A stretch of 64,000 nucleotides of DNA from [Flexibacter] sp. ATCC 35208. Its GTDB lineage: Bacteria > Bacteroidota > Bacteroidia > Chitinophagales > Chitinophagaceae. Location of the stretch: assembly GCF_001975825.1 (NCBI RefSeq), contig NZ_MTKN01000002.1, positions 62,001 to 126,000 on the forward strand. The letters run 5' to 3'. Of this stretch, positions 14,787 to 49,488 are shown in pieces (position 1 is the first letter of the stretch; each line of letters opens with the position of its first letter). Under the pieces are notes generated by a model. The model ran no database searches. It was not told the DNA's origin and was given only the letters and a program-made list of their open reading frames with translations. Made by a program: the position numbers and the translations under genes.

Positions 14787-14803
14787 TATTTCCCTGAAAT
14801 AAA

Positions 14804-15787: not shown

Positions 15788-15816
15788 GCTGTTACTCTTA
15801 AAGTTTGAAAGATAAA

Positions 15817-15840
15817 TGCCTTTGGCTTTTCCCAAAGGCA
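15817..15840 (-). promoter_or_regulatory. Hairpin in the pdhB 5' leader
   Basis: The perfect 9-bp stem TGCCTTTGG / CCAAAGGCA with a 6-nt loop lies between the predicted pdhB transcription start and its ATG. It has no T-run. It might affect mRNA stability or attenuation; no function is shown. Confidence 0.4.
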
Positions 15841-15844
15841 GGGG

Positions 15845-15876
15845 CAAAATTATTGTTTAATGGTGAAAAAAGCAAA
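15845..15876 (-). promoter_or_regulatory. Promoter of pdhB
   Basis: On the minus strand, -33 TTTG (15873-15876), a 20-bp spacer and -7 TAATTTTG (15845-15852) match the Bacteroidota promoter consensus. Transcription would start near 15838-15840. Confidence 0.65.
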
Positions 15877-15878
15877 GA

Positions 15879-15923
15879 TTAATTACCTCCTCCCCGACGT
15901 ACCGTCGGGGAGGAGGTAATTAA
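15879..15923. repeat. 45-nt perfect palindrome upstream of the pdhB promoter
   Basis: Two perfect 21-nt arms (15879-15899 and 15903-15923) flank the 3-nt centre TAC. The arms contain ACCTCCTCC on one side and GGAGGAGGT on the other. It lies 2 bp upstream of the -33 box of pdhB and 49 bp before the divergent membrane-protein gene. There is no T-run, so it is not a standard terminator. An operator, a recombination or REP-like site, or a structured RNA are all possible. Confidence 0.75.
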
Positions 15924-15971
15924 CTAAATAATATAAATTATATATATATTAGTGCCGAATTATCCTTACCT

Positions 15972-16610: not shown

Positions 16611-16642
16611 AAGGATCTGCCATGAGGCAGATCCTTCTTTTT
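16611..16642. terminator. Bidirectional terminator before the thiolase stop
   Basis: The perfect 11-bp stem AAGGATCTGCC / GGCAGATCCTT with the loop ATGA is followed by CTTTTTTT on the plus strand. It fills the gap between two convergent stop codons. Confidence 0.85.
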
Positions 16643-32374: not shown

Positions 32375-32539
32375 CGGTAGGGGTCCCCTGCTTTTGGTCA
32401 GGTTTAGATAATATCAAAACAAGTGAAGTTTTAATTAAATAAATTGATAATAAAGGATCATTTTTTATTTGATCCCAATGGGGATACGGCCTATAATTTT
32501 TTCTTTATTTTTATACCTTCATCAAAATCAATATTCCCA

Positions 32540-33319
32540 GTGCCTTTAAATTCAAAGTCCAGCAAGTGGCTGTATATCATTATCGTTCTTATCTTATGTG
32601 GGGCCGCCATCGGTATGTGGTATTTCAAACAGGGAAAGAAGCCTGCCCTGGCATCGTTCAGGGAGGCGCAGGTCAATTATACCGCTCATGAGGGGATCAT
32701 GGGTACCCGTACCACCCTTACATTGCCAGATAGCACTGAGATATTGCTGAATGGGAATTCGACCCTGCTGGTACCTGACAACTATGCACAAACACATGTT
32801 TTATTACTGGATGGAGAAGCCTGGATCAGCACTAAACATGCTATTAAGCTGGTTACCAATATTCTCACTATCACCAATACCGCTCCTGTCAGTTTCAGAA
32901 TTCGCTGCTTTGAGGCACAACAGGGTGCAACCGCCTACCTGGGTAGCGGTACAATACAGGTAGCCAAATCCTACCATTCAACTACTGATAACCAGGCAGA
33001 AACGTTAGGTATAGGCAATATGGTGCTGGCGAATAAAGAAATAGACCTGATGGAAAAAGAGACTTACCAGCCTGCAGAACTGGATCATTGGTTAAAAGGT
33101 GAGTTGGCCTTTTCCAAAGTACCGTTTATGAATGCAATGCATACACTGGAAGAATGGTATGGTACGGAAATTTATGTAGATGGTGATGTGTCGGGACTGC
33201 CTGTTGTAGATGGAAGTTTCCCTAATCAATCACTGGAAAAGGTATTACAGTCAATGCAAAAATCAATGTCTTTTTCCTATCATTTCAAAGGAGACAGGGT
33301 GAAATTGAAGGTAAAGTAA
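32540..33319 (+). CDS. Orphan FecR-like membrane protein, lacking the cytoplasmic anti-sigma part
   Basis: From GTG 32540 the product is 259 residues: a short cytoplasmic end, one transmembrane helix near residues 10-30 (LYIIIVLILCGAAIGMWYF), and a periplasmic FecR-like region (GTRTTLTLPDSTEILLNGNS, VLLLDGEAWIS). A C-terminal DUF4974-like segment follows (LAFSKVPFMNAMHTLEEWYG). The ~75-residue N-terminal sigma-binding part seen in other FecRs here is missing, and no sigma factor is adjacent. An in-frame ATG at 32444 would add 32 residues (rich in F, I) that do not resemble an anti-sigma domain. Start is uncertain. It precedes the MgtC-type gene by 27 bp, probably one transcript. Confidence 0.7.
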   Translation: MPLNSKSSKWLYIIIVLILCGAAIGMWYFKQGKKPALASFREAQVNYTAHEGIMGTRTTLTLPDSTEILLNGNSTLLVPDNYAQTHVLLLDGEAWISTKHAIKLVTNILTITNTAPVSFRIRCFEAQQGATAYLGSGTIQVAKSYHSTTDNQAETLGIGNMVLANKEIDLMEKETYQPAELDHWLKGELAFSKVPFMNAMHTLEEWYGTEIYVDGDVSGLPVVDGSFPNQSLEKVLQSMQKSMSFSYHFKGDRVKLKVK

Positions 33320-35277: not shown

Positions 35278-35299
35278 GAGGAACTTAGCTAAGTTCCTC
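35278..35299. repeat. 22-nt perfect palindrome over the isomerase stop codon
   Basis: GAGGAACTTAG / CTAAGTTCCTC is perfectly self-complementary and includes the TTA (stop) of the minus-strand gene. Without a strong T-run, it may be a weak terminator or mRNA 3'-end stabiliser. Confidence 0.5.
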
Positions 35300-36322
35300 T
35301 CCCACTTTCTTAAGGAGTGCTAATGTTTTTCTCACCCCTTCATCTTCGGACAATTGGTTGCCCTCGTATTCTATACCGATATGACCTGTATAACCGGCCT
35401 CTTTCACGATCTTCAGCATTTTATGATAGTCTGTTTCTACACAGTTACCATTTGCATCGAAATCATAGGTTTTGGCACTGGCGCCCTTCGCAAAGGGCAT
35501 GAGCTCTGTGACCCCTTCGTAGCGGTCATATTCTTCCAGGCATTTTGTTTTTGCCCATGCTTCAGGCGTATTGGCTTCGGGTTTTGTTCTGTTCAGGCAG
35601 AAGTTGCCAAAATCAGGGAGGGTGCCGCAGTTAGGGCGGTTGATTGTTTTCATAACACCAGACAGCCATTTACCATTAGATGAGATGCCGCCATGGTTTT
35701 CTACAATTACGTTGATATTATGGGTACTTGCGAATTCCGATAATTTAGAGAGGGATTCTATCACTGCTTTGGCTACATCCTCCGGCTTACCTTCGCCGGC
35801 AGCGTTGACGCGGATGGCGTGACACCCCAGGTATTCTGCGGCTTCCACCCATTTATAATGATTCTCCACCGCCTGGTGCCTCTTCTTTGCATCCTGATCG
35901 CCCATTTCTCCTTCGCCATCACACATGATCAATACACTCCTTACACCATTGTCACTACAGCGTTTTTTCAGATCAGCCAGGTAGCCTTTATCTTTTGCTT
36001 TGTCCTTAAAGAACTGGTTTACATATTCTACTGCCTCAATGCCGAAATCTTTTTTGGCTTTCACCGGGAAGTCAAGGTGGCTCATCTGGTTCGCAAATAA
36101 TGCCTTGTGGAAGGACCATTCTGCCAGGGAAATTTTGAAGAACAAAGACCTGGCTGTACCCAGCGCTTCCGCTTTGGTGGCGGCTGTGGAATCCTTTGTA
36201 TCTGATTCTTTTGTTGATTGCCCATTATTACAGGCGGCCAGAATAGTTGGAACCATGCCGGCGCCCATTGTGTACAATGCCAGTTGACGAAGGAAATCCC
36301 GACGATGAGAGTGAGAGTTCAT
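35285..36322 (-). CDS. Tat-exported lipoprotein of the sugar-phosphate isomerase/epimerase TIM-barrel family
   Basis: The 345-residue protein has a twin-arginine signal (SHRRDFLRQLALYTMGAGM) ending in a lipobox (LAAC), then a xylose-isomerase-like TIM barrel (about 60-340). Typical motifs are FKISLAEWSFHKALF near the start, IRVNAAGEGKPEDVAKAVIE, VENHGG with the metal-binding Glu, and GHIGIEYEGNQ with the terminal metal Glu. The family includes hydroxypyruvate and keto-sugar isomerases; its substrate is unknown. It lies 272 bp downstream of the BASS transporter, separated by a terminator-like hairpin (36563-36587). Export signals in this and the locus B enzymes suggest a common envelope theme. 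Confidence 0.85.
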   Translation of the reverse strand: MNSHSHRRDFLRQLALYTMGAGMVPTILAACNNGQSTKESDTKDSTAATKAEALGTARSLFFKISLAEWSFHKALFANQMSHLDFPVKAKKDFGIEAVEYVNQFFKDKAKDKGYLADLKKRCSDNGVRSVLIMCDGEGEMGDQDAKKRHQAVENHYKWVEAAEYLGCHAIRVNAAGEGKPEDVAKAVIESLSKLSEFASTHNINVIVENHGGISSNGKWLSGVMKTINRPNCGTLPDFGNFCLNRTKPEANTPEAWAKTKCLEEYDRYEGVTELMPFAKGASAKTYDFDANGNCVETDYHKMLKIVKEAGYTGHIGIEYEGNQLSEDEGVRKTLALLKKVGEELS

Positions 36323-36562: not shown

Positions 36563-36587
36563 GCCGTACTACTTACGGTAGTACGGC
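36563..36587 (-). terminator. Terminator-like hairpin at the end of locus B
   Basis: The perfect 10-bp stem GCCGTACTAC / GTAGTACGGC has a 5-nt loop and lies 7 bp after the transporter stop. On the minus strand it is followed by GCTAGTTTTATC, a weak T-run. Between it and the isomerase start (36323-36560) I see no gene and no clear promoter. Confidence 0.55.
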
Positions 36588-36594: not shown

Positions 36595-37590
36595 TTATTC
36601 TTCAGGGGGATGCCTATGCCACCAGCTGGCCAGCAAAGACCCCGTTACATTCATCAACGGGCCGAACACGGCCGGCGCCAACCCTACCGTCGCTATCTTA
36701 CCCATACTTTTCGCTATCGCAGATGCCAGCCCTCCATTTTGCATTCCTACTTCTATTGCTATGGTACGGCAATCCTGCTCCTTCATCCGGATCAGCTTAC
36801 ACAACCAGTATCCCAGTCCATAACCTGATAAATTGTGTATCAGGGAACTGAGAATCAATAATAAACCTACATCCAGCAAGCTATCCCGCCCATGGGCAGT
36901 AATGATCACAATGATAAATCCAATGGCAGCCATGGAGATCTTAGGCATCACATTGTCCAGCCATTTCGCCCTGCCACTCAAAAAATGATTGAAGACCAGA
37001 CCCGCTGCCACCGGCAGGATCACCATTTTAAAAATGTCCCACATCATATGAGTGACACTGATATCGATATAACTGCCTGCCAGCCAGCGCATGAGCAATG
37101 GTGTCACGAAAGGTGCCAGCATCGTGGAAATAGCCGTGAGCGTTACTGACAATGCGAGGTTCGCTTTTGCCAGATAAGAGATAACGTTCGACGCCATGCC
37201 ACAAGGCACGGTGCCTATCAATACCACGCCGGCAGCGATCTCCGGGGGAAACTTAAAGAGATGCGCCAGCCCCCAGCCAATAAAAGGCATGATCGTGAAA
37301 TGACAAAGTACACCTGTCAGCACACCCATAGGCATTTTGATCACACCATAAAAATCACGGAGACTCATGGCTGTTCCCATGCCGAACATGATGATCTGTA
37401 ATAAAGGTGTGATTAGTTTTGCAAGGTCGTAATCCCCAATCCGGGTAAAATATTGCGGATAGTATAGCGAAGTTGTCACAGCGGCAAAGATCATTAACGT
37501 ATACACGTAGCCGCGGGTCTGTGGTTTTCTGGAAAATAATATTGCTAAAAGTACCCAAAAACCAATAATATAAGGGCCGAGATGATTCAT
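36595..37590 (-). CDS. Bile acid:sodium symporter (BASS) family transporter
   Basis: The 331-residue inner-membrane protein has about nine or ten transmembrane helices and the family's landmarks: ITPLLQIIMFGMGTAMSLRD, VLIGTVPCGMASNVISYLAK, and the late IEVGMQNGGLASAIAK helix break that forms the Na+ sites. BASS proteins import organic anions with Na+; bacterial and plant members carry pyruvate, ketopantoate and other 2-oxoacids as well as bile acids. It is the last gene of the locus B run, 16 bp after the RraA-like gene. I infer that it takes the pathway's keto-acid product into the cytoplasm. Confidence 0.88.
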   Translation of the reverse strand: MNHLGPYIIGFWVLLAILFSRKPQTRGYVYTLMIFAAVTTSLYYPQYFTRIGDYDLAKLITPLLQIIMFGMGTAMSLRDFYGVIKMPMGVLTGVLCHFTIMPFIGWGLAHLFKFPPEIAAGVVLIGTVPCGMASNVISYLAKANLALSVTLTAISTMLAPFVTPLLMRWLAGSYIDISVTHMMWDIFKMVILPVAAGLVFNHFLSGRAKWLDNVMPKISMAAIGFIIVIITAHGRDSLLDVGLLLILSSLIHNLSGYGLGYWLCKLIRMKEQDCRTIAIEVGMQNGGLASAIAKSMGKIATVGLAPAVFGPLMNVTGSLLASWWHRHPPEE

Positions 37591-37606
37591 AAGTGGATAT
37601 TTATTT

Positions 37607-38521
37607 TTACCAGGTTCGTTTTTCTAACATTTTGTCCAGCTCCTGTCTGGTCATAGGTGCCTTACCCGCCTGCTTATGCTGCCATTCCAGAAAAGCCAGT
37701 CTGATAGCGTCTGTCCAGTTGTTGTCCAGTTCTCCGGGCGTATATTTTCCAGTCTTCAGCATCTCAAAACTAAATGCATCTTTAACCTGTATAAAGGCAG
37801 CGATACCAATTACTTTTTCTGCGAGATGAGCGGGCACGAAAATAACGCCTTCTTTGGAGGTTAATACTAAGTCACCCGGCAGTACGACTGCCTTTCCTAT
37901 ACGAATGGGTACATTCATACCAGACAACATTACGTTTTTCAAGAAGGATGGATCCCAGTCTCTCACCAGCGCATTAAAACCCGGAATGTCTTCCAGCCCT
38001 TCCAGATCACGCGCCGATGCATTGAAGACTACACCATTGCCGGAGCGGGCATAGATGGCATTCCCTAATGTAGAACCGATCAGTGTACCATCTGCAATTT
38101 TACCAAATCCATCAGCCACATATACATCACCTTTCGTCAATTGCTGTATGGGCCATGAATTACTATTGCCTTTCCAGCCTTTTTGTTGTCCGCGTTCTTT
38201 CAGATGTGCTTCTATATCCGGTCTGGCTGGAATAAACATGGCTGTCAGTGCTCTACCTGCAATCACGCTATCCGGATGGATCATTTTAAATCCACCTTCA
38301 AACTGGCAATGGTATCCTTCTCCTTCCAATATTGTCCATACATCATCCAGCCCTACTTCTTTTGCCTGTGCAATCACAGCATCAGGAATACGGGGACGGC
38401 CGTCCGGAAAGCGTTCTCCTTTCCAGTCGGCCGTTAAAAATATCAGTTCCTCTTTGGATATTGTCTGCGCTGCTACACGATTCATCAGCAGACAGAGTGG
38501 AATCAAAAAAAACAGTTTCAT
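37607..38521 (-). CDS. Exported RraA-family protein
   Basis: The 304-residue protein has a Sec signal peptide (MKLFFLIPLCLLMNRVAAQ) and an RraA fold at about residues 60-260. It shows the active-site signature GNAIYARSGNGVVFNASARD, with the R-D pair that binds the carboxylate and metal, and VLPGDLVLTSKEGVIFVP. Despite the name of the family's founder (RNase E inhibitor), these are often metal-dependent aldolases of 4-hydroxy-4-methyl-2-oxoglutarate type or oxaloacetate decarboxylases. An exported version would act in the periplasm. It follows the amidohydrolase by 3 bp and precedes the transporter by 16 bp. Confidence 0.87.
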   Translation of the reverse strand: MKLFFLIPLCLLMNRVAAQTISKEELIFLTADWKGERFPDGRPRIPDAVIAQAKEVGLDDVWTILEGEGYHCQFEGGFKMIHPDSVIAGRALTAMFIPARPDIEAHLKERGQQKGWKGNSNSWPIQQLTKGDVYVADGFGKIADGTLIGSTLGNAIYARSGNGVVFNASARDLEGLEDIPGFNALVRDWDPSFLKNVMLSGMNVPIRIGKAVVLPGDLVLTSKEGVIFVPAHLAEKVIGIAAFIQVKDAFSFEMLKTGKYTPGELDNNWTDAIRLAFLEWQHKQAGKAPMTRQELDKMLEKRTW

Positions 38522-38524
38522 ATT

Positions 38525-39760
38525 TTAATTTTCGGTTTGTACTGAGATACTATCCGCCAGGCCATTCAGGTCATACACGACCTTACCCGCACGAATGGTG
38601 ACTTCGCAGGCGATCCTTTCTTTCCCTTCCAGTTTTACACCCATAGGATCTGCATAGCCAAACTGCCCTTTCTCTAATCTTAAAATAGCAATGTCTGCCA
38701 CGGTATTTTCTGAAAGTGCACCCAGTTCTTCGTGACGAATGGCTTTTGCAGCATCATCCGTCGTTGCTTTGATCAGCGCATTAAAACTCATACCCATTGC
38801 CATGGTTTTCGACATCACATTCAGCAGGTCTTTCATGGCAGCATTCATACTGCCTGTGTGAATATCCGTGCTGATCGTATTGGGTAGGAAACCTGCTTTC
38901 ATAGCAGGCATCGCGATCTTGTAGGAAAAGCTGGTGCCACCATGTCCCACATCGAAGAGGATACCTTTTTTACGTGCTGCCCAGATGTAATCAGGCACTT
39001 TTCCATTTTCATCTACGATAGGCATACGTCCTTTTACATTGGCATATACATGGGTAAAGATATCGCCGGGGCGCAGGTGCTTTTCAAACAATTCATTGAG
39101 TGGCAAAGGCGGATTACTACCCCCAAAGTCAATCATTACCGGTGTTCCCGTCATCTCTCCTGCCTGTACCGCTCTATCCACGGGTGTCCATTCCGCACCT
39201 TCAAAGTGTGCCACCTTGATCCCTACTAAGTATTTCTTATACTGGCGAATGGTCAGTGCCGTCATCTTTGCATCCATATCATTCGTATCCTGTTCATAAG
39301 GACCACCCCGCATACCACCACCTACAATATTAAGAAAGGCCAATACCCTCGTTTGCGAATGACGGATGGTCTGATCCAAAAACGTTTCAAAGCTGCGCCA
39401 TCCGGAGCTACCGGCATCTACTACTGTCGTTACACCACAACGGAATGTAAAACCATCTGGTGCTACGGCACTGTAACTGTTATTTAAATACCTGTTAGGC
39501 GTGGTGCCAATGAAATTATGTGTATGAATATCAATAAGGCCCGGCGTCACGTACAATCCTTTTGCATCAATGACGGTGGCGGCTTTCGTAGCATCGATGT
39601 GTGGTGCTACCCTGGCAATGGTATCTTCTCTGAGTGCAATATCCATGACTGCATCAATATGATTGCGCGGGTCAATGACGTGCCCGTTTTTTATGAGGAG
39701 GCTGTATTGTTGTGCATGCAAAGCACTCCCAGCCAGCATGAGAAATATTAAAAACCTCAT
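38525..39760 (-). CDS. Exported amidohydrolase (deacetylase type)
   Basis: The 411-residue protein has a Sec signal (MRFLIFLMLAGSALHAQ) and an amidohydrolase-superfamily barrel. It has DIHTHNF (HxH metal ligands), a likely carboxylated bridging Lys in LVGIKVAHF, metal-ligand histidines in FTHVYANVKG and DVGHGGTSF, and the catalytic Asp in STDIHTG. It fits the subgroup of Atu3266 and EF_0837, which includes deacetylases of N-acetyl-D-amino acids or related acyl compounds and whose genes typically pair with DgaE-like PLP enzymes. Start 39760 is taken because the signal peptide begins there; the frame extends to 39853. A hairpin at 39801-39824 separates it from the PLP gene. Confidence 0.88.
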   Translation of the reverse strand: MRFLIFLMLAGSALHAQQYSLLIKNGHVIDPRNHIDAVMDIALREDTIARVAPHIDATKAATVIDAKGLYVTPGLIDIHTHNFIGTTPNRYLNNSYSAVAPDGFTFRCGVTTVVDAGSSGWRSFETFLDQTIRHSQTRVLAFLNIVGGGMRGGPYEQDTNDMDAKMTALTIRQYKKYLVGIKVAHFEGAEWTPVDRAVQAGEMTGTPVMIDFGGSNPPLPLNELFEKHLRPGDIFTHVYANVKGRMPIVDENGKVPDYIWAARKKGILFDVGHGGTSFSYKIAMPAMKAGFLPNTISTDIHTGSMNAAMKDLLNVMSKTMAMGMSFNALIKATTDDAAKAIRHEELGALSENTVADIAILRLEKGQFGYADPMGVKLEGKERIACEVTIRAGKVVYDLNGLADSISVQTEN

Positions 39761-39800
39761 TTCTGTTACTTTAATGTTAAGACCTGTGGGGTAAAAATTA

Positions 39801-39824
39801 ACAGGGAGCCTCAAGGCTCCCTGT
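39801..39824 (-). terminator. Intra-operon hairpin upstream of the amidohydrolase gene
   Basis: The perfect 10-bp stem ACAGGGAGCC / GGCTCCCTGT has a 4-nt loop. On the minus strand it is followed by TAATTTTTA. It resembles a leaky terminator between the PLP-enzyme and amidohydrolase genes. Confidence 0.55.
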
Positions 39825-39849
39825 GGGTGACTAAACACACTCCAATTTA

Positions 39850-41088
39850 TCAACCATGCGTTTCCGACAAAGCTTTCTCTGTGAGCGCTTTTTTCAGCGC
39901 TGCGGCTACTATTTTTTCCTGTCCGGGTACCAGCATCCAGGTAGTAATGGCTACGGCATGCTGGGTTTCCCCATCAGCTATTTCTATGGATGGAGAACCG
40001 CTTCTTAGTTTCTCTTTTAATTCTGCTGCGGTAGCAGGAATCTTTTTGGCATCCCAGCTTACATGCAGGGTAGGCACGTGATTGGCGATAGCCGGTACTT
40101 TCACGGTAGTAGTTACACCACCTACAGAAGTTGCTGCATCGCCAATCAACTTAATCTGTGCTTCCCACATTTTCCATTCTTTGTCATGATCGGTAGCCAG
40201 ATAAGTTTCCAGCGCTATCAGCATACCGAGTATTTCTTCTTTGTTTACTTTCAGACCACGGCCAATGGTATTCCCTCTTGGAGGAGCACTGAGGCGCGCT
40301 GCCTGAATGTATTTCTTTCTGCCCAGCAGCAAACCGGCACTTTGTGGGCCACGAATACCTTTACCACCTGAGAAACAAACCAGGTCATACCCCATGTTTG
40401 TATACTTCCACAGGTTTTCCACAGGAGGCACGTCTGCCGCACAATCTATCATGGTAGGGATGTTGTGCGCCTGTGCTATTTTCAGGAACTCTTCTACCTG
40501 TACCGGTCCATCAAAGTTGTTCGCATTCAGGAAATACATCAGCGCAGTCTTGTCGGTGATAGCGCTGATCAGTTCTTCTTTGGTATCTACATAAACGATC
40601 TTCAACCCTGTATTTTTCAAGGCATGTGCATAAGCGATATCATGCTTGCGCTGGATGATCACTTCTGTCTTCATACCAGTGCCTTCCAGGTGTGGCAGCT
40701 GTGCTACTTTCTTTTCATCCATGCCAGTGAGCACACCCGCAGCTCCCAGGGTCATGGCAGATGCACAACCAGAAGTGACGGTAGCATATTCACATTTCAG
40801 CAGCTCTGCAATGCGGGCACCTACTTTATCCTGTAGCTCATCGAGCAATACGAAATCTTTCGAAGCATAGTTGATGGCATTCATCACTTCAGGACGCATG
40901 AGCGATCCTGTCATAGCGGTATACGTGCCGGCCGCATTGATAAAAGTGCGGATACCTAAATCTTTGAAATAATCTTTTGCGACAGCAGGTGCTGCGGCGT
41001 CAGTTAATGGCAATATATTAGCACTGCCTGCGAAAGCCCCGAATACAGGGATCACAGACATGTTTTTCAATAAGTCTCTGCGGTTCAT
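39850..41088 (-). CDS. Tat-exported SelA/DgaE-like PLP-dependent enzyme
   Basis: The 412-residue protein begins with a twin-arginine signal (MNRRDLLKNMSVIPVFGAFA), unusual for a PLP enzyme but sensible since Tat carries folded, cofactor-loaded proteins. The fold-type-I domain shows FINAAGTYTAMTGSLMRPEV (typical of the SelA/DgaE group), TSGCASAMTLGAAGVLTGMD (phosphate cup), the cofactor Asp in TMIDCAADVPP, and the Schiff-base Lys in SGGKGIRGPQ. DgaE acts as an ammonia lyase on D-glucosaminate-6-phosphate; other members are transaminase-like. Here I infer deamination of an amino acid freed by the amidohydrolase. The start at 41088 is set by the Tat signal. Confidence 0.87.
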   Translation of the reverse strand: MNRRDLLKNMSVIPVFGAFAGSANILPLTDAAAPAVAKDYFKDLGIRTFINAAGTYTAMTGSLMRPEVMNAINYASKDFVLLDELQDKVGARIAELLKCEYATVTSGCASAMTLGAAGVLTGMDEKKVAQLPHLEGTGMKTEVIIQRKHDIAYAHALKNTGLKIVYVDTKEELISAITDKTALMYFLNANNFDGPVQVEEFLKIAQAHNIPTMIDCAADVPPVENLWKYTNMGYDLVCFSGGKGIRGPQSAGLLLGRKKYIQAARLSAPPRGNTIGRGLKVNKEEILGMLIALETYLATDHDKEWKMWEAQIKLIGDAATSVGGVTTTVKVPAIANHVPTLHVSWDAKKIPATAAELKEKLRSGSPSIEIADGETQHAVAITTWMLVPGQEKIVAAALKKALTEKALSETHG

Positions 41089-41120
41089 GAGTAGTAAAAT
41101 AAAAACGTGAGGAAGAAAGG

Positions 41121-41144
41121 GGGATCGCTTCAATAAGCGATCCC
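41121..41144 (-). terminator. Intra-operon hairpin between the RidA and PLP-enzyme genes
   Basis: The perfect 10-bp stem GGGATCGCTT / AAGCGATCCC has the loop CAAT. On the minus strand it is followed by CCTTTCTTCC, a poor T-run. It may attenuate or stabilise mRNA rather than end it. Confidence 0.45.
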
Positions 41145-41165
41145 GTAGAGAAGGGGGAACTATTT

Positions 41166-41627
41166 TTATAGAGATGCAATGCAGTCCATTTCTACAAGAG
41201 AGTCTCCCGGCACTCCTCCATATACAGCTACGGTAGTGCGTACCGGAGGGTTAGCGCCAAAACGGCCTCTATACACCTCATTCATGGCCTTGTAATCGTT
41301 CAGGTCATGTAGGAATACGCTTACCTTCAATACCTTGTCCATCGAAGAACCTGCCTTTTTCAACTGTGCTTCCATTTCTTTCAGCACATGATCTGTATGT
41401 GCCTTGATGTCTCCATCAAAGTGGGCGCCGATACCTGCAACGTATACGGTGTTGCCATGCACTTTGAAGCTGGAAAATAAAGGCACTTCCTGGTCATAAA
41501 CTACATTTCCATTTTCTGTTGTGGCAGGCAGTGTCGCCCCGGCAGCCTTTGCTACGGCACTGATGCCGGTCATGCCAGCTGCGGCGGCAAACATTTTTTT
41601 CAATACGGATCTTCTTTGGTTTTGCAT
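41166..41627 (-). CDS. Exported RidA-family protein
   Basis: RidA hydrolyses reactive enamines and imines (for example 2-aminoacrylate) that PLP lyases release, giving the 2-oxoacid and ammonia. The 153-residue protein has a Tat-like signal (NQRRSVLKKMFAAAAGMTG) and then a complete RidA domain of about 115 residues, with the carboxylate-binding Arg in PPVRTTVAVYGG and the Glu in SLVEMDCIASL. RidA is normally cytoplasmic, so export is notable. It fits a periplasmic PLP lyase encoded 77 bp downstream. It follows SusD by 20 bp. Confidence 0.9.
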   Translation of the reverse strand: MQNQRRSVLKKMFAAAAGMTGISAVAKAAGATLPATTENGNVVYDQEVPLFSSFKVHGNTVYVAGIGAHFDGDIKAHTDHVLKEMEAQLKKAGSSMDKVLKVSVFLHDLNDYKAMNEVYRGRFGANPPVRTTVAVYGGVPGDSLVEMDCIASL

Positions 41628-41647
41628 GATTTCAAAAGTTGAGAGGA

Positions 41648-43168
41648 TTATTCTTTATCCCACCATATGCGGGTTGTCATCAGGTTTGCGCCTTGTCTGT
41701 CTATCGCTTCCTGCAGGCTTGCTGCGTTCACGCTTTCTTCTGAAGGTGGATACAGGAGACGGCGGGGAATGGTACCACCAGTAATATTGCCGGAGATATT
41801 CACTGGCGTGAGTGCAGGATATCCCAAACGGCGCCAGTTGGCATGAATCTCCTGTTCATCGAGGAACATGGATACATAGTATTCATTGCCGATCATTTCC
41901 AGCTGTTGAGCTGTGGTACCAGTAAGAGTATGTGCTGCCTGGTAAGCTGTGATTTTACTTTCAGCAATCACCCCTGCAGTGCCAAATTCTGCCCAGTTGC
42001 GCATAGAAGCACCAATGGCGGCAGAGAAAGTAGTCGCTGCATCACCGGAATACCAGCCTCTTACAGCCGCTTCTGCCAGGTAAAGATTTACTTCTGCAGC
42101 ACTCATCACAATGATAGGTGCAGTATATTGTAAGATTGTTGAAGGATTTGGTTCTGAATAATACACGAAGCTATCTGGTTTCAGCAGCAAGCCATTGGGC
42201 ATACCGAATTGCAATGCGGTGCTGGTATCTGCCTTTCCATCCTTCCATACGATGGCGATTACATTCAGGCGCGGATCATTATTATCTTTCAGCAAATTGA
42301 TAAATGTCCGGGCCAGTTTACCACCTTCTGTATTGCTCGTACCATCTGCCACCGCGTAGTCGTTGGAAAGCAGGGCTGCCGCTCTTGGATTCCTGTTCAG
42401 CGATGTACCATCTGTGTATTTCATGGTAGCAATATCTGCATCATCCGTAATAACACCACCTGCAATTGCCTTCTGTACCCAGGTCTGTGCAGATGTTGCA
42501 TCGATTTTTGACATGCGCATACCCAAGCGCAGCATCAGGGAGTAAGCAAATTTTTTCCACTTGGTTACATCTCCTTCATAGATATAATCACCTGCACCAA
42601 AAGTTGTTTTGGAGGCATCGAGCGCCTGAGCAGCTTCATCCAGTTCATTCAGCATATCGGCATAGATGTCCTTTTGTGCATCGTAACTAGGTGTAAAGTT
42701 GTTAGTCGTATATCCCTGTGCAGCTTCAGAATAAGGAATGTCGCCATAGAGATCTGTTATGCGGTGCATAATGAATACGCGCCAGATGCGAGAGATGGAC
42801 AATTCATTGACTTCTGATGAGTCCAGTGCATTGATAACGGTCGCTATTTCATTTACAGCTCCGGGAAATCCAGTCGTAAAGTAATCGTAGGGATAGGTAC
42901 CTTGTTGAAAATAATATTTGTCTCCTATACCCGGTACGTCTTTGTATGTAGCAAATTGCTGCATAGATCCACCGCATGCCAGTGCATCTGTGGCAAACCA
43001 GCTGTTGTTCAGCGCGTCCAGCAGAGCTTTGCTGAACATATATTCCGGTACTGCGCTGCTAGAGGCATCCGGATTCACATTCATTTCTTCAAAGCCTTTG
43101 TCACATGACTGAATCAGTAATGTAGCTGCTATTGCTGTATATATAAGAAAGTTAAATCGCATTTTCAT
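41648..43168 (-). CDS. SusD/RagB-family lipoprotein (locus B)
   Basis: The 506-residue surface lipoprotein has the signal MKMRFNFLIYTAIAATLLIQ then lipobox SC, and belongs to the SusD-like group with CDKGFEEMNVNPDASSSAVP at the mature N-terminus. Other marks are SRIWRVFIMHRITDLYGDIP, APIIVMSAAEVNLYLAEAAV, and the late IHANWRRLGYPALTPVN block. This SusD-like_2 type is frequent at loci for peptides or other non-classic substrates. The start at 43168 is chosen for the signal peptide; the frame extends to 43192. It is adjacent to SusC and upstream of RidA. Confidence 0.93.
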   Translation of the reverse strand: MKMRFNFLIYTAIAATLLIQSCDKGFEEMNVNPDASSSAVPEYMFSKALLDALNNSWFATDALACGGSMQQFATYKDVPGIGDKYYFQQGTYPYDYFTTGFPGAVNEIATVINALDSSEVNELSISRIWRVFIMHRITDLYGDIPYSEAAQGYTTNNFTPSYDAQKDIYADMLNELDEAAQALDASKTTFGAGDYIYEGDVTKWKKFAYSLMLRLGMRMSKIDATSAQTWVQKAIAGGVITDDADIATMKYTDGTSLNRNPRAAALLSNDYAVADGTSNTEGGKLARTFINLLKDNNDPRLNVIAIVWKDGKADTSTALQFGMPNGLLLKPDSFVYYSEPNPSTILQYTAPIIVMSAAEVNLYLAEAAVRGWYSGDAATTFSAAIGASMRNWAEFGTAGVIAESKITAYQAAHTLTGTTAQQLEMIGNEYYVSMFLDEQEIHANWRRLGYPALTPVNISGNITGGTIPRRLLYPPSEESVNAASLQEAIDRQGANLMTTRIWWDKE

Positions 43169-43192
43169 AATTCGAGTGTGTAACATGAACAA

Positions 43193-46100
43193 TTAGAATT
43201 TAGCCATCAGGTTCAGACCAAAACTTCTGGTGCGTGGTATACCAAACGCTTCAAAGCCCTGGGCATTACTGTTCGTGTAGCTGGATTCCGGATCAAAGTT
43301 GTCCGTATTCTTGTACAGGATGAGCAGGTTACGTGCTACGAAAGACAGGGAAGCGCTCTGTACGATCTTCAGCTTTTGCACAGGTATCTGGTAGCTCAGT
43401 ACTACCTGGCGCAGTTTTACGAAGCTACCGTCGTATATGAACTGATCTGTATAATTCTTGGTATTGTCGTAGTAAAGACGCAGATTAGATACCGGGATGG
43501 TGTTGGTATAAGCATTGCCATTCTGATCAACGCCACTCAGTTCCAATCCGTTTTCACGGCCTTTCAATGTCTTTTTGTGCAGACCAAAACGGGTAGCGTA
43601 TACATTCATTACAGAGAATACCTTGTTGCCGAATTTACCGTCTACCAGTACATCCAGTGACAGGCGTTTATAATTGAAGGTATTGCTGAAACCCATCGTC
43701 AACGGAGGTACACCATTACCTAAATTTTTCAACGCACTCTTTTGCTCGTAGCCGGTAGCGCTATTGTAAATAGTTTCACCTTTCTCATTTTTCGCTGCGG
43801 AATACCCTTTGATCACACCATAGGGGCTACCTACGGAATTGTGTATAAATGCCCAGCTACCCACGCTGGTAGCCATCTGCAAGGTAGTGAGACCTGCTGC
43901 CAGTTGTTCTACTTTGCTCTGGTTATAAGCCACATTGTAGCTCACATTCCAGGTGAAGTTTTTAGATTTTACAGGTGTACCGGTTAACAGTACTTCAATA
44001 CCCTTGTTGGATAATTTACCCACATTCAGCAGTGCATTATTATAGCCGGAAGTGGTAGAGATGGCCGTAGTTACGATGTCGTTCGTCGTATGCTTGTTGT
44101 AGTAAGTGATATCAAAACCTATACGGTTATTCAGGAGCTGTGCTTCAACACCTACTTCGTAAGTAGTAGACGTGAGTGGTTTCAGGTTCGAATTGGTGAC
44201 CAGGTTTGCACCGTTTGACTGTGTGATTGTTTGTACAGGTTGGCCTTCATGTCCACCCTGTACCATACTATAACTCTGGTTCAGGATGTATGGATCAGGC
44301 GTTGCACCACCCACCTGCGCCCATGAGGCGCGTACTTTAGCAAAGCTGATAGCTTTAGGCAGCTGTACCGCATCAGAAAGAATGAAGCTGCTACCTACAG
44401 CAGGATAAAAGATGTGATTATTCTGAGGACTTAATGTAGAAAACCAGTCTTCACGGCCGCTGAAGTTCAGGAACAGGACAGATTTATAATCCAGGTCTAC
44501 CGCACCGAAAATAGAGTTAGTCGCTACATTATTTCTTGTGGGCGTAGTTGTGACTGTACTCAGGTTGGTATAGCTGTAGAAGAATGGAATAATGAACTGT
44601 GTACCTGTAATAGCTGTTTGATTTGATTTGTATCTGCGTGAATTTCCACCTGCAAGTACGTTCAGCCCGATTGTACCGGCGAGTTTGGTATTGTAGTTCG
44701 CCGTCAGCATAGAGTTGGTTTCTGATACTGCATTTCTTATGCCGCTGTATTCACCTGCAGCACCTGTAGTATATACTGTACCGGTTGGAATGATACCTAC
44801 ATAGTCATAGTTAAAGAAATCGCGGCTGATATTTCCTTTTACATACAGGTTCTTGAGGATGTCGTATTTCACACTTGCCTGACCAATGAAACGGTTTTTG
44901 GTATCATTGTTTTTGAAGCGGTTCACTACGAAATAAGGGTTGGAAGCGTACGCAGTTTCATTCCATTGTATTTCACGACCATTTGCATCATAACCGGGAT
45001 CCAGGGAGCGGATGTCCACAGTATTCGCGATCATATACACGCCCCAGTTGGGGTTGCCGGTAGCATCCCCGGAACTGGAGCGGTTTGTGGCATTCTCAAC
45101 ATTATATTGCGCTATTGCTTCGATGCTGATCTTTTTACCCAGGACAGCGTTCAGGTTCAGGTTCGCAATTTTCTTGTCGAACTTTGAATTGGGAACGATG
45201 CTTTTGCTGTTGGTATTGGAGAGCGAGAAGCGGAAGTTCAGTGCTTCATTACCACCGTTAAAAGCCACGGTGTTTGTATAGGTAGAACCTGTACGGTAGA
45301 AATTCTTGATATTGTTCTTTTGTGGAGAGTATGGATGTTCTTTACCATCGAATGCGATATAATTCTGACCATCCATCTTAGCCCCCCAGCTGCGACGGCC
45401 CCAGGTTACTGCCTGTGACTGTGAAGAAGGTTTTACACCACCATCACCCTGGCCATATTCATATTGCCAGTCAGTAAATACAACAGGTGTTTCTGCGGTG
45501 AAGGTAGAATTGTAATCTACCCCAACCCCCTTTCGGGCACGTCCTTTTTTGGTAGTGATGAGAATTACACCATTTGCTGCGCGGGAGCCATAGAGTGCAG
45601 CAGCAGTACCACCCTTCAATACGCTAATAGTTTCGATATCATCAGGGTTGATACCACCAATACCATCACCACGGTCTACGTTCTGACCACCACCACCGGT
45701 AGTAGGGCTTCCGCCTGGTGTAGTGTTATCGATTGGCATACCGTTTACAACATAGAGTGGTTGGTTATCCCCATTCAATGAGGTGTTACCACGAATGATC
45801 ACACGGCTGGAACCGCCGGGGCCACTGGCCAGGCTAGTAGCGTTCACACCTGCAATTTTACCGGTAAGTGCATTGGCAACGTTCACCTCGCGGGCCTGTG
45901 TGAAGTCACTACCCTTTACTTCGGTCACTGCATATGCCAGTGCTTTTTTATCTTTTTTGATACCCAATGCAGTCACTACTACTTCGGAGAGTGCTTTGTT
46001 GGATTCAGCGAGTGTTACACTTACCAGGTCAGCAGCGCTGTTGACAGTGATCTCCTGTTTATCAAAACCAATGGATGACACTACCAATACTACAGGAAGT

Positions 46101-46639
46101 GTAGCATCTTTTAAATTAAGTTCGAAATCTCCTTTATCGTTGGCAACAGTTACGAGAGCGGAATTACCTTTTACAGAGATGGTAGCACCTGGTACCGGCG
46201 CACCATCGGGGCCGGTAATTTTCCCTTTCAGTTTATCAGCAAAAAGTGCGTTGTAGTTGAGAATAGTCGTATTTACGTCCCTTGTATAAATAGAATACTG
46301 TGTTTTGTTGACACGGCTATAGGCAAGCGCGAAATCAGACAGTAACAGTTTTAAGGCAGCTTCTGCCTCCATTGTTTCTGCTTTGTCTACGACATCAGCG
46401 GGCACCATTTTACCATCCAGCAGTCCTTCTCTGTATGCGAAACGGATATTTTGCAGCTTTTTCAGCCTTATCAGTGCATCCTTCAGTGACATTGTTCCTG
46501 CCTTGTGGTATGGGATATTGTCTGTCTGCCTCATGGAAGCATACATCGCGGGCGTCTGTGCGCTGACAGGTGCAGCAATACCTGGTAGCAGGGCACAGGA
46601 AAGCAGCCCCAAAATTAGATTTTGGTTTAAAATGTTCAT
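43193..46639 (-). CDS. SusC-type TonB-dependent transporter with STN domain (locus B)
   Basis: The 1148-residue transporter has a signal peptide (1-28, ending PVSAQ), an STN domain about 50-120 (SLKDALIRLKKLQNIRFAYR), and a carboxypeptidase-regulatory domain about 138-225 (LKGKITGPDGAPVPGATISV). The plug holds VVVTALGIKKDKKALAYAVT and VIIRGNTSLNGDNQPLYVV, and the barrel ends SFGLNLMAKF. Its STN domain and the FecR/sigma genes directly upstream predict substrate-dependent induction of the whole locus. It is paired with SusD whose gene starts within about 25 bp. Confidence 0.94.
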   Translation of the reverse strand: MNILNQNLILGLLSCALLPGIAAPVSAQTPAMYASMRQTDNIPYHKAGTMSLKDALIRLKKLQNIRFAYREGLLDGKMVPADVVDKAETMEAEAALKLLLSDFALAYSRVNKTQYSIYTRDVNTTILNYNALFADKLKGKITGPDGAPVPGATISVKGNSALVTVANDKGDFELNLKDATLPVVLVVSSIGFDKQEITVNSAADLVSVTLAESNKALSEVVVTALGIKKDKKALAYAVTEVKGSDFTQAREVNVANALTGKIAGVNATSLASGPGGSSRVIIRGNTSLNGDNQPLYVVNGMPIDNTTPGGSPTTGGGGQNVDRGDGIGGINPDDIETISVLKGGTAAALYGSRAANGVILITTKKGRARKGVGVDYNSTFTAETPVVFTDWQYEYGQGDGGVKPSSQSQAVTWGRRSWGAKMDGQNYIAFDGKEHPYSPQKNNIKNFYRTGSTYTNTVAFNGGNEALNFRFSLSNTNSKSIVPNSKFDKKIANLNLNAVLGKKISIEAIAQYNVENATNRSSSGDATGNPNWGVYMIANTVDIRSLDPGYDANGREIQWNETAYASNPYFVVNRFKNNDTKNRFIGQASVKYDILKNLYVKGNISRDFFNYDYVGIIPTGTVYTTGAAGEYSGIRNAVSETNSMLTANYNTKLAGTIGLNVLAGGNSRRYKSNQTAITGTQFIIPFFYSYTNLSTVTTTPTRNNVATNSIFGAVDLDYKSVLFLNFSGREDWFSTLSPQNNHIFYPAVGSSFILSDAVQLPKAISFAKVRASWAQVGGATPDPYILNQSYSMVQGGHEGQPVQTITQSNGANLVTNSNLKPLTSTTYEVGVEAQLLNNRIGFDITYYNKHTTNDIVTTAISTTSGYNNALLNVGKLSNKGIEVLLTGTPVKSKNFTWNVSYNVAYNQSKVEQLAAGLTTLQMATSVGSWAFIHNSVGSPYGVIKGYSAAKNEKGETIYNSATGYEQKSALKNLGNGVPPLTMGFSNTFNYKRLSLDVLVDGKFGNKVFSVMNVYATRFGLHKKTLKGRENGLELSGVDQNGNAYTNTIPVSNLRLYYDNTKNYTDQFIYDGSFVKLRQVVLSYQIPVQKLKIVQSASLSFVARNLLILYKNTDNFDPESSYTNSNAQGFEAFGIPRTRSFGLNLMAKF

Positions 46640-46691
46640 TAGTTTTTTTTTACGTGTACTGTTTATACGCGCTTCCTCCGCGTACTCCCTT

Positions 46692-47723
46692 TTACTTTCC
46701 TGATGTGATGACCAGTTCCTTTTTGGATGGCTGATCGATTGTTACGTTTAGCGTAGTGGTAATTACGGTTAAGAGTTCTTCAACATTCGTTACGTTAATA
46801 TCTCCTTCAATCTTTAACTTCCTGAGTGAGGCATCAGCTACTTTCACGGTATAGCCATAGTTATCCTGCAGTGTTTCTATGATCTCACCTAAAGTGGCGT
46901 CTGTAAACGTAAGCTGTATCTCGGTCCAGCGCTTTATCTTCTCGGGCTTATCTAACTTTCTTGTTACTAGTAATTTATTGTCTGCGTATTCCACATAGTC
47001 TCCAGGCAACATGACGAGCGAGCGATCCTTATTATAATCTACTTTGATCTTACCTGTGATCAATCCAACTTTGGTTTTACCATGACGGCTTCTGACATTG
47101 AACGATGTACCCAGTACTTCTATACTAATGCCATTGCTATGTACTATAAATTGCTGGCCGGGGCCTGTCCTGTTGATATGTTTTACATCAAAATAGGCTT
47201 CCCCATCAATCCATACTTCTCTTGGTTTAGTGTCACTCCATTCTTCATTGAATGATATAGCAGAAGATGCATTGAGTGTTACGGTACTATGGTCTGGCAA
47301 TGTCACTGTTCTCATTTCTCCATAACCAGTTGCTATCTGCTCCATATGCGTCCGGAAGTAATGGTTCACCATCATATACCCCCCGGCAGTCACTACCAGG
47401 GCTACTGCTGCTGCACGCACCCAGTTGTTTAACCAACGCAGGCGGGCAGGGCGGGCACCCTGACGTTCTATAGTCGCAGTGATCCTTTCGAGTACACGGG
47501 CTTTGCTATCTTTATTGTCCCAGAACTCCTGTGACCGGTAGGAACGAATCACATTTACAGCAAACTCAAAGTTGGCTGCTGCTGCAGGATATTGTACAGG
47601 GAATTCGCTCCAGAATTGTGCTGCTACAGGGTCTTGTTCTTTGCCTGAAACCCATTTGATAAAAGCATCATCGTCCAAAAAATCCTGTAGTGAATACGCT
47701 AAATATTTATCATTGTTCATCAC
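46692..47723 (-). CDS. FecR-family anti-sigma factor (locus B)
   Basis: The 343-residue protein has a cytoplasmic N-terminus of about 100 residues (NDKYLAYSLQDFLDDDAFIK), one transmembrane helix near 108-124 (AAAVALVVTAGGYMMV), and the FecR domain (GYGEMRTVTLPDHSTVTLNA, VWIDGEAYFDV, IEVLGTSFNV). A C-terminal DUF4974 part (TFTDATLGEIIETLQDNYGY) follows. It is close to the start of the STN-SusC gene and downstream of the sigma gene, the usual signalling order. Confidence 0.93.
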   Translation of the reverse strand: MMNNDKYLAYSLQDFLDDDAFIKWVSGKEQDPVAAQFWSEFPVQYPAAAANFEFAVNVIRSYRSQEFWDNKDSKARVLERITATIERQGARPARLRWLNNWVRAAAVALVVTAGGYMMVNHYFRTHMEQIATGYGEMRTVTLPDHSTVTLNASSAISFNEEWSDTKPREVWIDGEAYFDVKHINRTGPGQQFIVHSNGISIEVLGTSFNVRSRHGKTKVGLITGKIKVDYNKDRSLVMLPGDYVEYADNKLLVTRKLDKPEKIKRWTEIQLTFTDATLGEIIETLQDNYGYTVKVADASLRKLKIEGDINVTNVEELLTVITTTLNVTIDQPSKKELVITSGK

Positions 47724-47765
47724 GCTATCCCCTGTTTATTGGTATTATACATGACATATTGAAAA

Positions 47766-48380
47766 TTATCCCTCCAAAACCGGATTTTTTTTTGAAATAT
47801 TTTTCAGCAGGAAGAAAAGGCCGCATAAAAGCAGCCAGGTTTGTTTGTTGGAGGCCTTTTGCAGGTTATCGAGGGCTTTATATAATAATTTATAGGTAGA
47901 ACTCATATTGATGTCCATGATCGTGGAGATTTCTTCGTAGGACATGCCTTCATAAAATCGCAGGAAGATGATCTCCTGTTGTCTGGCAGGGAGGGTATTA
48001 ACCAGGTCTATCACCTGCTTACGCAGTTCCTGCTCCTCCTGCCGGAAAGATGCATCAGGAATAAAGTTGACAGTAAAGCCAGTCCCTTCCCCATCCAGTT
48101 CCACGAATTTAGAAAGGGACTGGATCTTACGGAATAAGGTAGAACGGAATGCTTTGTACAGGTAATTTTTTACAGATACAGGTTGACCCAGTCGCTGGCG
48201 GGTAGTCCATATTCTCACAAAGAGATCGTGCACTACATCGTGGATGAGGTCTTCATCCCGCGTAAACTTACGGCCATAGTTGTTCAATAGTTCGTAAAAC
48301 TCTCCATAAAGAGCGGTGAAGGCATCCCAGTCCCCCTGTTTAAACGCATTCCACCATAACACATGACTCTCCGATTGCAT
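47766..48380 (-). CDS. ECF RNA polymerase sigma factor (locus B)
   Basis: The 204-residue ECF sigma factor has region 2 (EFYELLNNYGRKFTRDEDLI, HDVVHDLFVRIW) and region 4 (LPARQQEIIFLRFYEGMSYE, EISTIMDINMSSTYKLLYKA). The C-terminal tail is hydrophobic (QTWLLLCGLFFLLKNIS), as in loci A and C. It heads locus B and should direct transcription of SusCD and the downstream enzymes under control of FecR. No consensus promoter was found right upstream, so the sigma gene may itself depend on another sigma factor. Confidence 0.93.
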   Translation of the reverse strand: MQSESHVLWWNAFKQGDWDAFTALYGEFYELLNNYGRKFTRDEDLIHDVVHDLFVRIWTTRQRLGQPVSVKNYLYKAFRSTLFRKIQSLSKFVELDGEGTGFTVNFIPDASFRQEEQELRKQVIDLVNTLPARQQEIIFLRFYEGMSYEEISTIMDINMSSTYKLLYKALDNLQKASNKQTWLLLCGLFFLLKNISKKNPVLEG

Positions 48381-48423: not shown

Positions 48424-49488
48424 TCAAATCTTCACGATAATATTTCGCTTGTACATGATCCAAACGGGTATGAGCATGAGTAGTACCAATGTGATAGCTG
48501 CTGCCAGTGAGGCATTGAGCGGCGATAAGAATGGCATGAACAGGGAGGATGGTATACTGTGTATTCTTGGTACCAGTCCGGACAGTACATATGCCGTAAT
48601 GGCGTTCCGGCCAAATGCTACAAATGGCGGTGTAATGCTTTTATATCCCTGTACATCTATGAGCCAATAGCAAAGCGCCAATCCCATACTAGCCAGCCCT
48701 GCTGTAAATAATACGAATGAACTGGTCCACAATTGTTTGTTGATCGGGAAAAAGCCATCCCATACCAGCCCTGCCAATACTGACAGGAAACCTGCTGTAA
48801 ATAACCAGGCGACCTTATCTGCTTCAGGCTTATCTTTTCTTCTGACCCAATCACCCACCATAATCCCCAATAAACCAGTACCAATCGCAGGTAATGTGCT
48901 TAAGAGTCCTTCTGGGTCCCAGGTGCGGGATTGCTTCCAGAGATGATCAGGGGTGAGGATCAATCTGTCCAGCCAGGCACCTAAGTTAGTTTCCGGTTCC
49001 AGATTGGGATACCCCACACCCGGTACAGGCACAAGGGTCATAAGCAGGTAATAGCCTACCAACAGCCCGCCACAGACCCAGATCCTGGTTTTGCTGCTGG
49101 TTTTCAGATATAATAATGATATGATGAGGTAAACTACCGCAATCCTGGCCAATACACCCGGTATACGGACGTGTGCGAAGTCGAACTTAGGGATCAATCC
49201 AAAAGCCAGTCCAATGCCAAATATGATGGCCGCACGGCGAAATATGTGGAGGATGAGTGATTTATGTAGGGTAGGGTCTTCTCTCCTGCTGCTCAGGGCA
49301 AACGATACTGCTACGCCCACCATAAAGAGGAAGAACGGGAATACCAGGTCTGTAGGCGTGCAGCCATTCCATTTTGAGTGCTCCAGAGGGGCGTAGATGT
49401 GGGCCCAGTCACCGGGATTGTTTACGAGGATCATTCCGGCTACGGTAACGCCGCGAAAAAAGTCTAGGGAAAGTAAGCGCTGTTTCAT
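48424..49488 (-). CDS. HGSNAT/DUF5009-type membrane acyltransferase
   Basis: The 354-residue multi-spanning inner-membrane protein resembles the heparan-alpha-glucosaminide N-acetyltransferase/NagX group. Typical are the N-terminal RLLSLDFFRGVTVAGMILVN, the catalytic-region PLEHSKWNGCTPTDLVFPFF segment with its conserved His, and about ten transmembrane helices. These proteins transfer acetyl groups across the membrane to amino sugars or similar acceptors, but bacterial members are largely uncharacterised. The acceptor cannot be inferred. It is between a small secreted gene (upstream, with a terminator) and the locus B sigma gene, and may be independent. Confidence 0.85.
   Translation of the reverse strand: MKQRLLSLDFFRGVTVAGMILVNNPGDWAHIYAPLEHSKWNGCTPTDLVFPFFLFMVGVAVSFALSSRREDPTLHKSLILHIFRRAAIIFGIGLAFGLIPKFDFAHVRIPGVLARIAVVYLIISLLYLKTSSKTRIWVCGGLLVGYYLLMTLVPVPGVGYPNLEPETNLGAWLDRLILTPDHLWKQSRTWDPEGLLSTLPAIGTGLLGIMVGDWVRRKDKPEADKVAWLFTAGFLSVLAGLVWDGFFPINKQLWTSSFVLFTAGLASMGLALCYWLIDVQGYKSITPPFVAFGRNAITAYVLSGLVPRIHSIPSSLFMPFLSPLNASLAAAITLVLLMLIPVWIMYKRNIIVKI

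Follow-up and report, generated by a model that had tools for sequence, protein, structure and literature searches.

RidA proteins and lyases of the DgaE type are, as far as is known, enzymes of the cytoplasm. Export of an enzyme that carries pyridoxal phosphate (PLP) has a precedent in PvdN, which takes the twin-arginine translocation (Tat) route for pyoverdine maturation; it contributes a single biosynthetic step, and we know of no RidA partner for it. Here we analyse a nine-gene locus of the soil bacterium [Flexibacter] sp. ATCC 35208 in which a RidA-family protein and a DgaE-related PLP enzyme both bear Tat-type signals and stand beside two further enzymes with signals of the general secretory (Sec) type, all behind a SusCD uptake system. 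The locus lies within a 64,000-nucleotide stretch of contig NZ_MTKN01000002.1 (positions 62,001 to 126,000; hereafter the window), in an 8.6 Mb genome close to Chitinophaga silvisoli. No exported RidA/PLP pathway is described in the literature that we searched, outside which most subscription journals fall.

The closest described system is the ong pathway of Pseudoalteromonas prydzensis, in which growth on N-acetylglucosaminate requires each of OngB, OngC, the RidA-family protein OngD and KdgK, and whose catabolic reactions take place in the cytoplasm (PMC9537276); this oxidative chitin pathway is also treated in PMC12017989. As far as the accessible parts of these reports go, it shares with the window TonB-dependent uptake, a deacetylase, a PLP deaminase, a RidA-family protein and the lack of a prior phosphorylation. 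The two differ in compartment, OngB, OngC and KdgK being cytoplasmic after SSS import whereas the four enzymes of our locus all have export signals. They also differ in their protein families: OngB is of the D-aminoacylase group, whereas the window has a hydrolase of the NF006689 group and a DgaE-related lyase, and where the ong cluster has a 2-keto-3-deoxygluconate (KDG) kinase the window has an RraA-type protein in its stead. We found no KDG kinase in the window's locus and no KdgK match in the 80 related loci described below. By its sequence, the window's set is a member neither of the ong pathway nor of the DgaE equivalog.

D-glucosaminate catabolism by DgaE/DGL and DgaF offers a second comparison (PMC9529869, in its accessible part), with a related PLP lyase, an expected amino-sugar-acid ammonia-lyase chemistry and an aldolase as the next enzyme. 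DGL is cytoplasmic and acts on a 6-phosphate made by the phosphotransferase system, whereas the PLP group of the window keeps neither its phosphate-site arginines nor its HH pair. Periplasmic oxidation of 3-keto-glycosides (lactose) in Caulobacter and Bacteroidota is alike in that sugar oxidation and hydrolysis are proposed to take place in the periplasm, but the accessible text on that system describes no PLP enzyme, RidA or deamination (PMC9007349).

A nine-gene locus with four signal-bearing enzymes

The nine genes lie on the minus strand in the order sigma factor, FecR, SusC, SusD, RidA, PLP enzyme, amidohydrolase, RraA and BASS, and their families were checked against Pfam and NCBIfam. 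Control and uptake would fall to an extracytoplasmic function (ECF) sigma factor (47766..48380; Sigma70_r4_2, Sigma70_r2 and TIGR02937 above cut-off), a FecR-type anti-sigma protein (46692..47723; FecR and FecR_C above cut-off), a SusC/RagA-type TonB-dependent transporter (43193..46639; TIGR04056, 601.9 against a cut-off of 368) and a SusD-like lipoprotein (41648..43192; PF12771, 276.8 bits; lipobox seen by eye), whose likely start is about 25-30 nt inside its open reading frame (ORF). There follow a RidA-family protein with the Tat signal RRSVLKK (41166..41627; PF01042, 74 bits against a cut-off of 27.3), a DgaE/SelA-related PLP lyase with the Tat signal RRDLLKN (39850..41088; match to 7lc0 by profile, 176.6 bits), an amidohydrolase/deacetylase with a Sec-type signal (38525..39760; NF006689, 434.9 bits, above the curated cut-off of 371) and an RraA-fold protein, also with a Sec-type signal, that may be a class II pyruvate aldolase (37607..38521; PF03737, 51.5 against 24.5). 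The run ends with a BASS-family inner-membrane carrier (36595..37590; PF01758, 142.5 bits), whose nearest NCBIfam models, PanS (236, cut-off 400) and TIGR00841 (232, cut-off 326), both score under cut-off.

Intergenic gaps range from 0 to 89 nt: 42 between sigma and FecR, 52 between FecR and SusC, 0 by ORF between SusC and SusD, 20 between SusD and RidA, 77 between RidA and the PLP gene, 89 between the PLP and amidohydrolase genes, 3 before RraA and 16 before BASS. The ORF table and family models thus bear out the preliminary description of nine genes on one strand with short gaps. Its STN label for SusC did not hold up, Pfam giving no STN domain even at E values up to 10, though residues ~45-125 look STN-like by eye. 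Two starts were corrected: that of the PLP gene to 41088 (MNRRDLLKN), replacing a mechanical TTG at 41133, and that of the amidohydrolase gene to ~39760 (MRFLIFLMLAGSALHA), replacing 39853. With these starts all four enzymes have export signals, as had been claimed, by eye of twin-arginine type in RidA (MQNQRRSVLKKMFAAAAGMTGISAVAKA) and the PLP enzyme (MNRRDLLKNMSVIPVFGAFAGSA) and of Sec type in the amidohydrolase and RraA (MKLFFLIPLCLLMNRVAAQ).

Gene content, signals, conservation and catalytic residues were read from the sequence, and from them we infer the reactions, the substrate, the order of steps, the direction of transport and the aldolase step. Our preferred reading, for and against which we find the case evenly balanced, is an inducible uptake system (sigma/FecR and SusCD) that feeds periplasmic catabolism of an N-acetylated 2-amino-2-deoxy-sugar acid, which would most simply be N-acetyl-D-glucosaminate or an isomer. 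The compound would cross the outer membrane by way of SusCD and lose its N-acyl group to the Sec-exported amidohydrolase; the PLP enzyme, exported by Tat after folding with its cofactor in the cytoplasm, would then eliminate water and leave an enamine or imine, from which hydrolysis by the co-exported RidA would release ammonia and leave a 2-keto-3-deoxy acid. This acid may be split by the RraA-type protein into pyruvate and an aldehyde, and the oxoacid would cross the inner membrane through BASS. Many relatives also have an exported sugar dehydrogenase of GSDH type with a haem motif, some of them with a lactonase besides, and there the amino sugar would first be turned into the sugar acid. 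The ong pathway is cytosolic in the accessible text of PMC9537276, and such a periplasmic, non-phosphorylative route is best read as its exported variant.

Export signals are conserved in related loci

Relatives of the PLP enzyme were collected by one scan of 84,980 species genomes with mature-domain peptides; there are at least 554, and the loci of the best 80, ranked by whole match, were analysed. They are not mutually independent, and 32 are shorter than 20 kb; gene matches in them were counted at E 1e-5. As a second sample, 296 genomes were drawn evenly from the phylum, and seven of them, the window's own included, had strong matches. Relatives beyond Bacteroidota come from plasmid records and single contigs only. 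Signals were called by one home-made TATFIND-like rule on every ORF of the 80 loci whose 5' end is complete, an RR motif plus a hydrophobic uncharged stretch being the Tat criterion. Two earlier rules were dropped: one missed RRSSFKK-type signals, and the other wrongly barred Asp/Glu at +2 and gave RR in 53/88 PLP proteins and 64/75 copies of the RidA named RidA1, as distinct from a second RidA (RidA2).

Tat-type signals were found in 72/75 RidA1 and 86/88 PLP proteins, compared with 24/416 among the remaining ORFs of these loci that reach 250 aa, and both proteins have them in 72 of the 75 loci that hold both. Sec-type signals were called in 65/70 amidohydrolases, 42/45 RraA proteins, 28/29 RidA2 proteins, 9/11 SMP-30 proteins and 31/38 GSDH-type proteins (32/38 with either type of signal). 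Where all four enzymes are present they are all signalled in 38 of 42 loci, so that homologous loci keep the signals together. The Sec calls are weaker than the Tat calls, because the Sec rule errs both ways: it passes 10/16 FecR proteins, which are membrane-anchored, and 200/416 other ORFs, and only 20/29 SusC proteins (sigma factors, 0/13). Read by eye, the proteins that the Tat rule misses have KR in L126, RR with a short hydrophobic stretch in L104 and a clear RR in L069 and L080. The RidA of L090 (Sinomicrobium weinanense), likewise missed by the rule, seems truncated, with the C-terminal half of the domain directly after the RR motif.

The second sample agrees. Reading the six other genomes by eye, we found RR in each of the 11 PLP proteins that are complete and also in a broken one; the nine RidA1 proteins comprise seven with RR and two with RK. 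TatC is present in the host genome, which has five other RidA-family genes, four without a signal and one lipoprotein-like; the latter (L004; G000:C122:31311-31616) is remote from this locus.

The N-terminal motifs might nevertheless not export, leaving the enzymes in the cytoplasm or the signals as inefficient remnants. That localisation is here a prediction, that related rhizobial enzymes have no signals and that RK occurs in two of the nine RidA1 genes just mentioned would all suit this explanation. It fits poorly with the type and place of the signal being kept, despite differing letters, in 86/88 PLP ORFs, with the recurrence of RR in Granulicella, a member of another phylum, with the presence of TatC and with the exported look, by the laxer Sec rule, of the partners RidA2 and SMP-30. 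We regard it as very unlikely, and the localisation predicted from the sequences as strong.

Catalytic residues of the four enzymes

The PLP enzyme had been labelled SelA/DgaE-like; it is indeed related to DgaE but falls outside the DgaE models, scoring 192 bits against 385 for TIGR01437 and 151 against 600 for NF047797. The PLP lysine (equivalent to Lys 213) and D189 and H112 of the cofactor site are invariant in 80/80 rows (79 relatives and the window). The phosphate-site arginines of DGL, R301, R332 and R346, which in the accessible account were placed at the phosphate by docking (PMC9529869), are replaced, there being no Arg at any of the three columns in 80/80 rows, and this loss fits an unphosphorylated periplasmic substrate. 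Of the HH pair of DGL, the H163 column is empty in 80/80 rows and the H162 column has His in 11/80. We considered the lost proton-donor His as the reason for a dedicated RidA and found it only suggestive: a RidA also adjoins the rhizobial enzymes that retain HH, so that the loss of His alone does not account for RidA. Tat export would fit a PLP enzyme that folds in the cytoplasm with its cofactor loaded.

RidA keeps its active-site Arg and Glu in 75/75 relatives. Five metal ligands of the amidohydrolase are kept in 69/69 relatives and one in 65/69; its nearest solved chains are 8je0, 2ogj, 8wzy and 2ics. The proposed route of deacylation, deamination and aldol cleavage is supported in part: the PLP enzyme is a relative of DgaE outside its models, and the residues of RraA give a mixed answer. 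The position of RraA Asp102, which we take to be a metal-site residue of HMG/CHA aldolase, is Asp in 36/45 relatives, Ser in 8/45 and Ser in the window. R123 and D124 are kept in 45/45 relatives and in the window; in the RraA-type HMG/CHA aldolase Arg-123 is essential and Asp-124 and Glu-199 bind metal, according to the accessible part of PMC5065237. RraA-type aldolases are not mentioned for pentose pathways in PMC6336799. An aldolase step in this locus is, on these residues, a weak proposal.

The Ser at this position bears on a different order of events, in which the exported enzymes do act on amino sugars but the amidohydrolase serves to open a lactone or lactam, RraA has some function other than that of an aldolase, and the product enters whole through BASS or TRAP to meet a kinase and an aldolase in the cytoplasm. 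Such a scheme would be in line with PIG-L genes adjoining the amidohydrolase gene in some loci, with the absence of RraA from 33/80 loci (many of them short) and with the GSDH-type gene of one genome (G134), which has genes of KdgK and Eda type close by on the opposite strand. It has to contend with the R123/D124 pair of all 45 RraA proteins, with there being no KdgK or Eda match in the 80 loci at E 1e-8 and with the SMP-30 or other lactonases that some loci already contain, and we think it unlikely.

Gene order and neighbours favour an amino-sugar acid

The complete nine-gene order recurs in 12/80 loci (L049-L058, L060, L061), and RidA stands directly before the PLP gene in 71/80. The PLP protein of L049 is 96% identical to that of the window. 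Matches in the 80 loci number 75 for RidA1, 70 for the amidohydrolase, 47 for RraA, 38 each for BASS and GSDH-type genes, 29 for RidA2, 27 each for SusC and SusD and 12 for SMP-30. Of the loci that span 15 kb or more, 28 have a GSDH-type gene, in every case within 6.7 kb of the PLP gene. A CxxCH haem motif is present in 34/38 loci, and the ORFs that lack it are short or cut; the single GSDH-type protein scanned with Pfam has a glucose/sorbosone dehydrogenase domain and a C-terminal cytochrome c. The seven genomes of the second sample hold 1 to 6 GSDH matches each, the best being near the PLP gene in 5/7, not in the window's genome or G134. In G134, the GSDH-type gene is in L142 (3147-9251), off the PLP locus.

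Near the 80 loci we counted CBM9_2 (15), NagB-like (6), PIG-L (4) and NagA-like (3) genes. Marine flavobacteria have a same-strand run of CBM9_2, GSDH-type, (PIG-L), amidohydrolase, BASS, RraA, RidA, PLP and RidA2 genes followed by a TRAP or esterase-like gene, some members being absent in some loci. In L039 (genome G126; 5789-17782) multiple PLP, amidohydrolase and GSDH-type copies are adjacent, which looks like a duplication of the exported unit to serve several substrates.

In the window, a gene of the NagX/HGSNAT family encodes a putative transmembrane glucosamine N-acetyltransferase (48424..49488, minus strand; PF07786, 30.4 against a cut-off of 22; NF046061, 209 bits, short of its cut-off of 480). 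The family, for which acetylation of periplasmic glucosamine has been proposed (PMC9007349, accessible part), is found directly upstream of sigma here and in 7/10 Chitinophaga-clade loci (L049-L058), and also in L062, L073 and L079. Because of the GSDH, lactonase, PIG-L, NagA/NagB-like, NagX and CBM9_2 neighbours, an amino-sugar acid is favoured among the two substrates first put forward, and an N-acyl-D-amino acid less so.

Plain N-acyl-D-amino acids (N-acyl-D-serine or -threonine, or muropeptide-derived compounds) would nonetheless suit the same exported chain, which would then yield a simple 2-oxo acid, the nearby sugar enzymes belonging to other units. The Atu3266 group of amidohydrolases is active on N-acetyl-D-amino acids. 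The nearest solved chains 8je0, 2ogj and 2ics point in this direction, as does the lack of a sugar dehydrogenase in the window's locus, and a 2-oxo acid would suit a PanS-like carrier. Yet the GSDH-type genes of 38/80 loci belong to the same run, lactonases, CBM9_2, PIG-L and the NagX family are recurrent, and pyruvate formed straight from serine would leave the RraA-type aldolase without a use; we consider amino acids an improbable substrate.

Related enzyme sets without signals

Homologues that lack the signals were seen only in distant rhizobial loci adjoining ABC importer genes. On rhizobial plasmids (L130, L133, L134) a distant PLP relative (~31% identity) stands beside RidA and these importer genes, and L133 carries the same amidohydrolase family as the window. 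The same enzyme types thus adjoin as in the window, but none of the seven rhizobial proteins read by eye has a signal; their RidA resembles the PF14588 type by eye. In Granulicella (Acidobacteriota, L129) both the PLP protein and RidA have RR signals, and the locus also encodes a 7-bladed lactonase and a flavin adenine dinucleotide-dependent (FAD) oxidase with a BBE domain, in which no signal was seen by eye. With support of 100/99, a tree of 33 rows (every third locus), which carries long-branch warnings, sets the Bacteroidota and Granulicella proteins apart from DGL, the rhizobial proteins and a haloarchaeal one. The signalled and signal-less sets would be related enzyme sets in two compartments, each matched to its transporter.

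Flanking genes and hairpins

The unit may reach past its nine genes, with the NagX-family gene 43 nt upstream of sigma and a gene for a xylose-isomerase-like TIM-barrel protein with a Tat lipoprotein-like signal 272 nt downstream of BASS (35285..36322, minus strand; PF01261, 87 bits). TIM-barrel genes occur in 8/80 loci, all among the 10 Chitinophaga-clade loci, and 8/8 of the proteins have a Tat signal. A FecR-type protein is encoded at 32444-33319 of the window with no sigma or SusC gene adjoining it among the listed ORFs.

Promoters and terminators were judged by consensus alone. Perfect 10-bp hairpins were seen on the minus strand in the RidA-PLP gap (41121-41144), in the PLP-amidohydrolase gap (39801-39824) and just 3' of BASS (36563-36587), the last of them terminator-like; attenuators or mobile inverted repeats are possible identities for the three. 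The idea that intergenic hairpins form a conserved element was rejected after 13 loci (L049-L061) had been tried, of which L050 and L056 were unparsed: a long hairpin in the RidA-PLP gap occurs only in L049, with a different sequence, and 7-bp hairpins occur in L052 and L057.

Discussion

Several observations count against periplasmic catabolism of an amino-sugar acid as we have drawn it. The two hairpins within the run could divide the transcript. The signals are called by a home-made rule, and the relatives covered are the best 80 of 554 or more. The window's RraA has Ser for Asp102, and the amidohydrolase may have another role, such as lactone opening, because loci with PIG-L hold two possible deacetylases. 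That an exported lyase without the HH His could depend on RidA is only a hint, rhizobial HH enzymes being RidA-adjoined too. On the substrate side, no sugar dehydrogenase or lactonase was found in the window's own locus and no AA10 lytic polysaccharide monooxygenase in the host genome, whose best GSDH match lies on another contig amid unrelated genes. NagA/NagB-like and PIG-L genes occur in few loci and partly on the other strand; the host genome has four NagX-family genes, and the family is absent from two of the seven genomes that carry the PLP gene. Other substrates fit too, since 16/80 loci have sulfatase-like genes nearby. A second amino-sugar locus on host contig C191 was considered and rejected, its weak PLP match being cysteine desulfurase-like by eye and its GSDH gene standing amid unrelated genes.

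A bolder reading goes further. Bacteroidota and at least one acidobacterium might run the whole degradation of amino sugars outside the cytoplasm, by a non-phosphorylative route that resembles the Entner-Doudoroff pathway. A dehydrogenase of pyrroloquinoline quinone (PQQ) type or with a cytochrome would oxidise C1, the lactone would be opened and the N-acetyl group removed; a Tat-exported PLP lyase, served by its own Tat-exported RidA, would then deaminate the product, and aldol cleavage would follow. Acetate and ammonia would be released in the periplasm and a small oxoacid alone would cross the inner membrane. We put this forward tentatively, as a possibility that is rather less probable than not.

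The conserved Tat-signalled pair would mean that reactive intermediates derived from PLP chemistry arise, and are quenched, in the periplasm, and if the complete extracytoplasmic route is true the clearing of reactive enamines and imines would be a periplasmic function too. The carbon and nitrogen of amino sugars would then be processed before the inner membrane and unphosphorylated, which would bear on how soil and marine bacteria use sugars derived from chitin or peptidoglycan. The proposal attaches a testable function to a gene set for whose PLP enzyme the scan found at least 554 relatives.

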